NCBI GenBank assembly: GCA_027366155.1 | Contig: DAHXKV010000050.1 | Location: 1 to 35,002 of the forward strand | DNA from: Microcaldota archaeon | Lineage (GTDB): Archaea; Micrarchaeota; Micrarchaeia; Micrarchaeales; CABMGC01 | Direction: 5' to 3' | Length of the DNA stretch: 35,002 nt | The notes under the pieces: generated by a model | Told to the model about the DNA's origin: nothing | Databases searched by the model: none | The model's input: only the letters and a program-made list of their open reading frames with translations | In this document: piece by piece, positions 29,178 through 32,254 of the stretch | Layout of the letters: every line of letters starts with the position of its first letter | Numbering within the stretch: the stretch's first letter is position 1 | Translations under genes and position numbers: made by a program

Positions 29178-30767
29178 TCAGGCATAGGCTCTCGAGACCT
29201 TGGAGTAGAGCCTTTTCCAGACAAACGTGTTGATCAGGATAATAATTACGGTCAGGTTTATTAATGCAAGCATCATGAGCCCCAGGTTGTTCGAGGCAAG
29301 AGTTAGGTCGAGCAGCTTGCCTATCCCTGTGCCAACCTGCGAGACGACGGATGCGCCTACGGTGAAGTACTCTGCTATTATCGAGGCGTTCCATTCAGCC
29401 GCAATTGCAGTCACGCTCCCGGTTACAAGCCCGGGTATTATCGCCTTGAGGTAGATGTTTTTCCAGGCCTTCCATCCCTTTACCCTGAATATGTCCTTAA
29501 CCTCGAAGATGTTCTGTGGCATGGTCTTGGCAGTATTCAGGGTGCTGAATATTATGTACCATATGCTGCTGAGCACGAATACTATCGAGGCCACAAGCTC
29601 ACCGGAGTGAGGAGTTGAGCGCAGCAGCGAGACTATTGCCGGAAGCAGGATTGTTGCTGGTATTGAGGATATTATCTGGAAAAGGAGCGTGTACTTTGAG
29701 CCGTGCCTGGTCAGAAATATGGTGTAGACGCATATTGGCACACCGATGCACATGGATATCGCGAATGCGAGCCATATCCGCGCAAAGGAGAATGAGAGCG
29801 AGGTAAGGACTGTTTCTTCTGCAAGCACTAGTGCATGGTTTGATACTGCTGTATAAAGGGTCAGAGCCGCAGCCAGAAAGAGGATTATGTATGGGGCGAA
29901 TTTCCAGTAAGTCTCATGGCGGGAAGGCCTGTTGGGTGTCAGCGCGGCAGTCTGCCTGTTCTGCATGCCTGGGAGAACCTTGACTATCCGGGATATGTTC
30001 CCCTTCTCTATCTTCCGTATGAACCTTGCGCCCATGGTGCCTATCTGCCCCGGATTAAGCGGCCACTGCCTCTCGCTCTGTTTCTTGCCTGAGTTGCGTG
30101 TGTACCTTGTCACATAGTCTTCCCACGGTTTGAAGAAAAGGAAACGGGTTGCTATTACGAAAATTATAAAGATGCCTATTGCCATCGAGTAGCTTATTAT
30201 GTTTCCGGTTATTGCTGGCGAGGCGATCGCGGCGCCTATGCCCGTCTTTACTGCGTATGCGGCATTGGCTGTCGAGAATATCTCGCTGGTTACAAGGTAG
30301 AATAATCCTATAGACCATGAGAGTATTGACTGCTCGACAACGCGCGGCATTGCGGCAGGTATCTGTATCTTGGTAAGCCTGTCCCAGCGCGAAAGGCCGT
30401 AGAGCCTTGAGAGCTCCATGTATTCCTTTGGAAGCGACTTCACCGACTCGTACACCCCGAAGATTATGTTCCACACCATGCTTGTTATTATCAGGAAGAC
30501 CACGGCCGCGTTTATCCCCAGCGCGCCGGGTATTGCGGACACTATTATGAGTATTGCAAAGGGGAAGAATGCCAGTATCGGGAGCGTTTGGAGAATGTCG
30601 ACTAATGGGATTATTATTTTCTCGGCAGTCTTGTGTGTCGCGGCATAGATGCCGACTAAAAGGCTTATTACAACCGAAAAAGCGAGGGCGGCAAACATTC
30701 TGGCCCATGAGAATGCAGTATCGACTATTAGGGAGAGTGCGAGCCCGAGTATGCCAAGCGAGTACAT
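29178..30767 (-). CDS. Duplicated ABC anion permease (two BPD_transp_1 domains)
   Basis: A 529-residue membrane protein with about 12 helices in two homologous halves: one permease domain at about 15-240 and a second at about 330-525, joined by a charged linker. Each half shows an EAA-like cytoplasmic loop: EYMELSRLYGLSRWDRLTKIQIPAAMPRV in the first and FEVKDIFRVKGWKAWKNIYLKAIIPGLV in the second. This is the fused, duplicated permease type known for archaeal anion transporters, so one chain can form the whole pore. The frame extends to 30875, but ATG 30767 lies about 29 nt from a box A. No substrate-binding protein gene is near. Confidence 0.9.
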   Translation of the reverse strand: MYSLGILGLALSLIVDTAFSWARMFAALAFSVVISLLVGIYAATHKTAEKIIIPLVDILQTLPILAFFPFAILIIVSAIPGALGINAAVVFLIITSMVWNIIFGVYESVKSLPKEYMELSRLYGLSRWDRLTKIQIPAAMPRVVEQSILSWSIGLFYLVTSEIFSTANAAYAVKTGIGAAIASPAITGNIISYSMAIGIFIIFVIATRFLFFKPWEDYVTRYTRNSGKKQSERQWPLNPGQIGTMGARFIRKIEKGNISRIVKVLPGMQNRQTAALTPNRPSRHETYWKFAPYIILFLAAALTLYTAVSNHALVLAEETVLTSLSFSFARIWLAFAISMCIGVPICVYTIFLTRHGSKYTLLFQIISSIPATILLPAIVSLLRSTPHSGELVASIVFVLSSIWYIIFSTLNTAKTMPQNIFEVKDIFRVKGWKAWKNIYLKAIIPGLVTGSVTAIAAEWNASIIAEYFTVGASVVSQVGTGIGKLLDLTLASNNLGLMMLALINLTVIIILINTFVWKRLYSKVSRAYA

Positions 30768-30790
30768 CGTAAGTAGAGAGTCTTTAAACG

Positions 30791-30800
30791 CATTTATACC
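30791..30800 (-). promoter_or_regulatory. Box A of the ABC transporter operon
   Basis: GGTATAAATG on the minus strand, centred about 29 nt before the ATG at 30767. It supports that start and a nearly leaderless mRNA. Confidence 0.6.
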
Positions 30801-30898
30801 TTTGTCAGCATCTCCGGCAGGTTTGTGAGCCAGTGCGTAAAAAACCAAGTAAGCTTGGCAGAATAAGCCGGGCATGGGCGCGCGTGCATGTGCATGCG

Positions 30899-31216
30899 TC
30901 AGTTGCTTATTACGAACCTGGAAATTACCTTTGTTGCCCTCTCAAGCACTTCCTTTATGTTCTTGGTTGTGTTCGAACCAGTACAGATAAGCTTCCCATT
31001 CTTGAAGAGTATTATGACAGCTTTCGGCTCCTTTATCCGGAATATTGCTCCGGGGAACTGCTCCGGCTCGTAATCCACCTCCTTTATGTCCCTGGATAGC
31101 GAAAAGAGATCTATGTTTGCGTGGAGATCCGCGCTGACCACTATATTCTGTATTTTTATCTGGGGATTTATCTTTGGTGCCGCGCTTCCTCCCTTTGAAC
31201 CTGCCTTGGATGCCAT
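30899..31216 (-). CDS. tbp: Single-repeat (half-length) TATA-binding protein
   Basis: A 105-residue protein with one TBP repeat. After a 20-residue basic Ser/Gly tail come IKIQNIVVSADLHANIDLFSL, YEPEQFPGAIFRIKEPKAV, IILFKNGKLICTGSNT and a closing helix KNIKEVLERATKVIS. Both Phe positions that kink DNA in TBP (the FPG Phe and the LF Phe before NGK) are present. Normal archaeal TBP has two such repeats in about 180-200 residues. Here the stop follows directly after one repeat, and the next 100 nt hold no second repeat in any frame, so no frameshift explains it. It would have to act as a homodimer or pair with another half. ATG 31216 has its own CCTTTTAAAGG box (31244-31254) just after the deaminase gene. 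Confidence 0.85.
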   Translation of the reverse strand: MASKAGSKGGSAAPKINPQIKIQNIVVSADLHANIDLFSLSRDIKEVDYEPEQFPGAIFRIKEPKAVIILFKNGKLICTGSNTTKNIKEVLERATKVISRFVISN

Positions 31217-31243: not shown

Positions 31244-31254
31244 CCTTTTAAAGG
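31244..31254 (-). promoter_or_regulatory. Palindromic box A of the half-TBP gene
   Basis: CCTTTAAAAGG on the minus strand, near-palindromic, about 33 nt before the ATG at 31216 and 10 nt past the deaminase stop. It implies an independent promoter for the TBP gene. Confidence 0.45.
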
Positions 31255-31264
31255 TTCTTGGCAC

Positions 31265-32254
31265 CTACTTTATGAAAGATGATGAGAAGGCCAGGGCATT
31301 TGCACTTGCTGCGTCCTTCTCGGAGATTATGCCGTTTTCTATCAGGAAGGATATCTCGTTCCGGAGGTTTGTCTTGAGCATCTCGGGGCCGTCAGTGTTT
31401 ATGGTGTACTTGACATTGTGCGAGTTGAATGCCTTAAATATCCTCTTGAGGTGGTCTATGCCAGAAACAACCCCCGTATGCAGGTTGGATGTAGGGCAGA
31501 GTTCCAGCACAATGCCGTGTTTCGCAAGGAGGTCCATCACGTCTTCGCTTTCCGCAGCCTTGACGCCGTGTCCTATCCGGTCTGGGGAAAGGTTTTCAAC
31601 AACCCTTGAAACCGAGGAGTGGTCTTCTTCTTCGCCTGCATGCACAGTGAGTCCGAGGCCTGCGCCGCCGGCCTCCGCATACAGGGCCTTGTAGTCTTCG
31701 TACCTGAATTCTGGATTCCTTTCCCCGGCAATATCTATTCCCACGACGCCCCTGCTGCTGTACTTGATAGCCTTCTTGACCAGTATCGAATTGAGTTTGT
31801 GTTCGAATTTTCGGTCAAGGCAGACGATTATTCCTGCTTTAACAGGATAGTCAAGGGTGGCCCTGTCCAGACCACGTATTGCCGCCATGAATATGTGGTC
31901 GAGGTCCTGCTCGCCGTTCCTGTTCCTTTTCATCGGATTGAAGCGCAGTTCGAGCTTTGTTATGTTGTTTTTCCTGTACGCCCCGGCTATTGTCTGGTAG
32001 ACCGCCCGCTCCACTGCGATTGGGCTTGACTGTATGAAGTCGGTCCAGTGGAAGAGCTCAAGGTATTCGTCAAAAGACTTCCGTGAATTTTTGTCTACCG
32101 TTATCATGTCAGCGAATTGCCAGTAGTCCTTCGTTGGCAGCCTTATTCCCTGCGCGTGGGCTATCTCCCACATTGTTGCAGGGTCCACAGAGCTGCCCAG
32201 GTGCACATGGAGCTCGGCAAGCTCCGCAAGCTTAGAATCGTTATCAGAGGCCAT
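31265..32254 (-). CDS. Adenosine/adenine deaminase-family protein with altered active-site Asp
   Basis: A 329-residue amidohydrolase of the ADA family. Zinc ligands and catalytic segments are clear: ELHVHLG (H16, H18), LTVHAGE (zinc His and catalytic Glu region), RIGHG and LCPTSNLHTG. At the end the family motif normally reads N/S-T-D-D-P, but here it is NTDGPEM: D288 (zinc/catalytic) is kept and the next Asp, which contacts the purine ring N7 in known deaminases, is Gly289. This suggests a changed substrate. Length is normal. Start 32254 follows AGGTG, which overlaps the IMPDH stop, 8 nt away, so it is translated together with IMPDH. The substrate is probably a purine nucleoside, nucleotide or base. 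Confidence 0.88.
   Translation of the reverse strand: MASDNDSKLAELAELHVHLGSSVDPATMWEIAHAQGIRLPTKDYWQFADMITVDKNSRKSFDEYLELFHWTDFIQSSPIAVERAVYQTIAGAYRKNNITKLELRFNPMKRNRNGEQDLDHIFMAAIRGLDRATLDYPVKAGIIVCLDRKFEHKLNSILVKKAIKYSSRGVVGIDIAGERNPEFRYEDYKALYAEAGGAGLGLTVHAGEEEDHSSVSRVVENLSPDRIGHGVKAAESEDVMDLLAKHGIVLELCPTSNLHTGVVSGIDHLKRIFKAFNSHNVKYTINTDGPEMLKTNLRNEISFLIENGIISEKDAASANALAFSSSFIK

Follow-up and report, generated by a model that had tools for sequence, protein, structure and literature searches.

Half-length TATA-binding proteins with a single repeat in Candidatus Micrarchaeota

The internal repeat of the TATA-binding protein (TBP) has long been read as what remains of a homodimer, and we know of no organism that runs its general transcription on a TBP of half length. 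Single-TBP-domain (monopartite) proteins were reportedly found in some archaea by Brindefalk et al. in 2013; to our knowledge neither lineages with only a single-repeat TBP nor repeated re-duplication were reported there. Our own search of the openly available literature found no description of lineages that have half-length TBPs only, some overlap with the work of Brindefalk et al. being possible. Surveys of DPANN archaea give TBP as present and, in the parts concerned with it, do not note its length (PMC8407392, PMC8204110).

The half-TBPs described here have the fold, the DNA-contact residues and the Phe pair in common with the canonical archaeal TBPs of Sulfolobus (1mp9), Methanocaldococcus (2z8u) and Pyrococcus (1pcz/1ais), and like these they are employed where promoters are of the BRE-TATA kind and TFB is canonical. 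They differ in that there is one repeat per chain, so that a saddle needs two chains and has no asymmetry between N and C halves, and in their signature, which is FKNGK and ICTG rather than F-SGK and VVTG. The N-terminal TBP-like domain of RNase HIII (DUF3378) and the TBP domains of DNA glycosylases also consist of a single TBP-like fold, however these are parts of enzymes, whereas the protein described here stands alone and scores far better as a TBP. The number of TBP-fold units also varies in the poxviral proteins VETF-l and VITF-3l (two and three), where units and asymmetry have been added, whilst the half-TBP is a reduction to one repeat (PMC12917281).

The window, the whole stretch of 35,002 nucleotides that was analysed, is contig 32 of a Candidatus Micrarchaeota MAG (G000; 778 kb in 61 contigs, 78% complete) and carries the half-TBP gene that we call type B, an ORF running from ATG to TAA (Table 1). 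The Pfam TBP model PF00352 matches the product once, over residues 19-101 and all 85 model positions (E 3.3e-25; 88 bits against a curated cut-off of 22.9), and TBPs in the PDB align to it via either of their repeats (E about 1e-36). Only half of each of the NCBI two-repeat TBP models (NCBIfam PRK00394) is covered, with scores of 74-90 bits against cut-offs of 181-347, and the match to DUF3378 is weak (E 6.5e-4, below cut-off). The AlphaFold model of the monomer (pLDDT 91.9) has the fold of a TBP repeat. Foldseek superposes it on TBP halves from human, plant and yeast at 0.7-1.1 A, the human half at 0.7 A, with matches at 0.7-0.9 A over 81-86 residues (E about 1e-7). Both DNA-kinking Phe (F54 and F71) and the three minor-groove residues N24, V26 and T79 are present, and no second TBP repeat was found beyond the stop or in the flanks, where the neighbours are an adenosine-deaminase-like and an ABC-permease ORF. 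The preliminary description had claimed a single, well-preserved TBP repeat with both Phe kept, nothing hidden at the stop or in the flanking sequence, and a near-palindromic element upstream; all of this is confirmed, and its coordinates were right, the one omission being the strand. The protein is one complete TBP repeat and a genuine half-length TBP.

Table 1. Coordinates of the half-TBP genes and associated features (locations without a genome handle or accession are positions in the window)
Feature	Location	Strand	Basis or remark
Type B half-TBP gene; product a TATA-binding protein of 105 aa with one repeat, QNIVVSADLHANIDLF	30899..31216	-	ORF list, PF00352, AlphaFold, Foldseek
Single TBP repeat (Pfam positions 1-85): N24, V26, YEPEQFPG stirrup (49-56), F54, F71, T79	30914..31162	-	PF00352 and alignment
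Near-palindromic TATA-like box CCTTTTAAAGG, minus-strand reading CCTTTAAAAGG	31244..31254	-	28-38 nt upstream of type B start
Adenosine-deaminase-like ORF	31265-32254	-	Ends 48 bp upstream of type B gene
ABC-permease ORF (longest reading)	29178-30875	-	Starts 23 bp downstream of type B gene
Type A half-TBP, ENIVASADLGVELDLY; single repeat in 116-aa ORF	G000:C4:1533-1781		PF00352 six-frame search
A_DKE half-TBP	NZ_CP060530, 786685-786930	-	Closed genome
A_DKE half-TBP	NZ_CP060530, 156040-156282	+	Closed genome
Canonical two-repeat TBP (L404)	G243:C43:2718-3251		Thermoplasmata-like
726-aa ORF with four TBP repeats (L262 / L260)	G155:C8:9538-10695		Diapherotrites-like
Lipoprotein-like ORF with two TBP repeats (L265)	G160:C1:23919-24398		Signal peptide
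Type B genes of family f2 (examples): L072, L076, L080, L271, L276; L269 (A_DKE)			

A six-frame search of the whole of G000 with PF00352 gave two matches only, the window gene and a second, unlinked half-TBP, which we call type A and which is 46% identical to type B (alignment A1); no full-length TBP was found by this search in a genome that is 78% complete. A single TFB was detected, and it is canonical, with two cyclin repeats. Of the two roles offered in the preliminary description, neither stands unchanged. As the sole TBP of its cell the window gene fails, a type A gene being present, and what holds is that a full TBP is absent from the search; as a paralogue tuning a full TBP it lacks the full TBP, type A being the conserved main gene and type B absent from whole genera. 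It is type A that is the sole TBP in genomes with one gene, such as G033 and G007.

De novo searches of upstream regions recovered the motif gaAAgaTTTATAT in G000 (score 124, shuffles 66-81) and cAAtcTTTTTATA in G033 (score 234, shuffles 84-122). Most instances of both begin 35-50 nt before the start codon, positions that are approximate as gene starts came from a simple script, and both correspond to a BRE with a full-length TATA box, the signature of TATA-dependent initiation, although these two genomes have half-TBPs only. Symmetric TATA boxes, as a sign of a homodimer, were not found genome-wide, the motif being the usual directional BRE-TATA. The near-palindromic box upstream of the window gene has counterparts, CCTTTAAAAGG or AGCTTTAAAAAGCT, before the type B gene of each of the five further genomes in the genus, and TBP would presumably recognise it; type A genes of family f1 mostly have a TATAAATA-like box. 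In G131, a two-repeat species (upstream regions L352-L371), the strongest upstream motif is of a TTGCA type and not TATA.

The stirrup of TBP contacts TFB, and the contact residues have their equivalents in yeast TBP. Across 149 aligned single repeats there is almost no variation at N24, V26, F54, P55, F71 and T79 or in the YEPEQFPG stirrup (N24, F71 and P55 in 149, F54 in 148, E50 in 147), and both kinking positions are held by Phe, with one Tyr. Bending of DNA by Methanocaldococcus TBP (MjTBP) needs both Phe sets (PMC4041446), and two half-TBP chains are therefore to be expected. TFB is required in many archaea for a stable complex of TBP with DNA, and direction comes in other archaea from TFB on the BRE (PMC7289017).

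A search for TBPs in named genomes led mainly to Candidatus Micrarchaeota, and this clade defines the scope of our survey, which took in 224 genomes of the phylum, those at least 80% complete and, among the 224, that of the window. Half-TBPs proved to be common in related genomes: about 145 of the 215 TBP-bearing genomes (counted from the survey output) have single repeats only, in 67 a protein with two repeats covers the profile, a two-repeat TBP is cut by the contig end in two more (G118 and G182), and one (G021) has a tandem arrangement. The single repeats occur in families f1, f2, f4-f7, f9, f11, f13, f15-f18, f20 and f23, the two-repeat proteins in f3, f8, f10, f12, f14, f19, f21, f22 and f24-f26. 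Apart from f1 and f2, most families have a single type of half-TBP, and in some genomes that are closed or nearly so the total is one half-TBP gene. In a second, Diapherotrites-like phylum TBPs are also mostly single-repeat.

The single-contig genomes G033, with one gene, and G042, G048, G058 and G136, with two each, are all single-repeat. The closed genome of Ca. Micrarchaeum sp. A_DKE (NZ_CP060530; L156, handle G149) has two unlinked half-TBPs at the same coordinates as in G136 and no full-length TBP. This organism grows in co-culture, and TBP is not mentioned in the text of the paper on it (PMC8975820).

Several further observations were made during the survey. Three single-repeat copies per genome are found in G073, G079 and G082 (family f7) and in G147. 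The four repeats of the Diapherotrites-like ORF in Table 1 are diverged and followed by a hydrophobic, membrane-like segment, and the two of the lipoprotein-like ORF, which follow its signal peptide, are very diverged. No clear viral half-TBP was found, the matches in IMG/VR being two-repeat; one of these (L381, IMGVR_UViG_3300000875_000007) has an in-frame TAG between the halves, which may be a mutation, recoding or a true split. The micrarchaeal MAG G243, which has its own type A and B genes, also contains a Thermoplasmata-like canonical TBP that is probably contamination from the host; it is the only two-repeat protein seen in f2, and an A-B fusion as Rosetta-stone evidence was accordingly rejected.

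Type B is distributed through f2 and part of f1 and is missing from whole genera, with A and B together in most f2 genomes and in about half of those of f1. In three f1 genera, g3 (5 genomes), g10 (10) and g24 (6), every member with a TBP detected has one match, so type A alone must do the work there. The type B genes in 16 of 21 f2 genomes examined have no evident ATG, GTG or TTG start; an ACG occupies the position where the start would be expected, in most cases 5-7 nt beyond a Shine-Dalgarno-like GGTG, and several of these ORFs open with the ACG directly after a stop. Conservation of ACG as a start codon would be unusual and may serve to tune type B expression, and standard gene callers would miss or mis-start such genes.

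A tree of 121 repeats (single, N and C) sets all repeats of these clades apart from the canonical N and C halves (92/92). Within the window's order types A and B make up one group (97/88), and type B forms one branch (95/99), which also took in the extreme long-branch sequence L237. The placement of the single repeats relative to the canonical N and C halves is weak because there are only 83-86 alignment columns. In the two-repeat TBPs the halves group by lineage and not as N and C; with two-repeat proteins only, AU tests reject all N halves as one clade (p 3e-6) and DPANN N halves as one clade (p 1.9e-5). N and C halves of the clade's two-repeat TBPs are 51-84% identical, those of the Sulfolobus, Methanocaldococcus and Pyrococcus TBPs 43-55%. 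This lineage-wise clustering implies that the repeat has been re-duplicated or homogenised several times, re-duplication and concerted evolution through gene conversion predicting the same pattern. Furthermore, single- and two-repeat states are intermixed on the RpoB tree, and about six changes are needed.

Two genomes bear on the direction of such changes. At the end of the TBP contig of G021 lies a tandem duplication, in frame and with 98/99 nucleotides the same in both copies, a near-fresh duplication by its appearance, with the position at a contig end leaving some room for an assembly effect. In G137 a single-repeat TBP sits inside a two-repeat family; compared with the halves of the G133 protein its start is N-like (27/36 to N against 17/36 to C), its middle near-identical and its tail C-like (16/26 against 11/26), the comparison with G103 being weaker (start 24/36 to both halves; tail 13/24 against 16/26). 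This is the pattern that would be expected of repeat loss by recombination between repeats. Repeat number is thus labile. A secondary origin of the single-repeat state in the clade is likelier than a primordial one; it seems to us improbable that Micrarchaeota and Diapherotrites have kept alive, in their single-repeat TBP, the homodimer from before the duplication, the clade's two-repeat TBPs being later, independent repeats of the duplication behind the TBP of all other archaea and eukaryotes.

It is likely, in our judgement, that half-TBPs pair into the usual saddle on TATA together with TFB, with type A as a general homodimeric factor, type B as an order-specific paralogue and repeat number labile. 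Two chains would form the saddle, a Phe pair and a set of minor-groove contacts coming from each; this dimer would bind a TATA box of the ordinary kind and bend it, and would be fixed and oriented by a canonical TFB on the BRE. Where there is one half-TBP gene in all and promoters are of the ordinary BRE-TATA kind, a homodimer is the simplest reading and would fit type A well. The saddle is also the predicted form of a natural two-repeat relative whose halves are 81% identical (TM 0.86-0.93 to archaeal TBPs), which indicates that near-identical halves suit that geometry. Type B would be an accessory, order-specific paralogue rather than the main TBP, probably making alternative saddles (B-B or A-B) with another promoter preference or a regulatory role. 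In this DPANN clade, repeat number would have changed repeatedly through tandem duplication or homogenisation, and through loss by recombination.

The main rival for type B is that it is no initiator but a repressor or dominant-negative, titrating type A or blocking TATA boxes, possibly its own palindrome. Some genera dispense with the gene, the near-palindromic box of its promoter is kept within the genus, and the ACG start in f2 suggests tuned expression; however type B retains the full set of DNA contacts and the YEPEQFPG stirrup, which a pure blocker would not need, and we regard this role as possible if doubtful. A different arrangement would make A and B the two halves of one split TBP acting as an obligate heterodimer. 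The two do co-occur through much of f1 and f2 with the DNA-contact residues kept in both, yet type A manages alone in g3, g10 and g24, a single type is found in most families beyond f1 and f2, and within the order A and B group with each other instead of joining the canonical N and C halves respectively. The tree rules out a split into canonical N and C halves, and an obligate A-B partnership is unlikely.

Less probable still is that a half-TBP binds half a TATA box as a monomer and that TFB provides the remainder. The dependence of many archaeal TBP-DNA complexes on TFB would suit it, as would a complete Phe pair on one repeat, but the promoter motif is of full length, MjTBP needs both Phe sets to bend DNA and the inter-domain face would be exposed in an open half-saddle, so that we give a monomer very little weight. 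That the window gene is a pseudogene or a full TBP broken by a sequencing or assembly error, against which the preliminary description had warned, might be suspected of a MAG in 61 contigs at 78% completeness. It can be dismissed with near certainty, as the same architecture in closed single-contig genomes and in about 145 genomes altogether excludes an assembly artefact; the reading frame and residues are conserved, start and stop contexts are independent, and the search does detect a canonical two-repeat TBP when there is one, as on the host-like contaminant contig of G243.

With the paired half-TBP as the preferred reading, whole lineages, one of them in culture, appear to run general transcription on a half-length TBP. 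The arrangement is the one long guessed for the ancestor of TBP, here in living and cultivated lineages, and next to it stand relatives with two repeats, a tandem duplication that looks near-fresh and a repeat loss. Natural pairs of proteins thus make testable the origin of TBP, directional transcription by a symmetric factor and the benefit of fusion.
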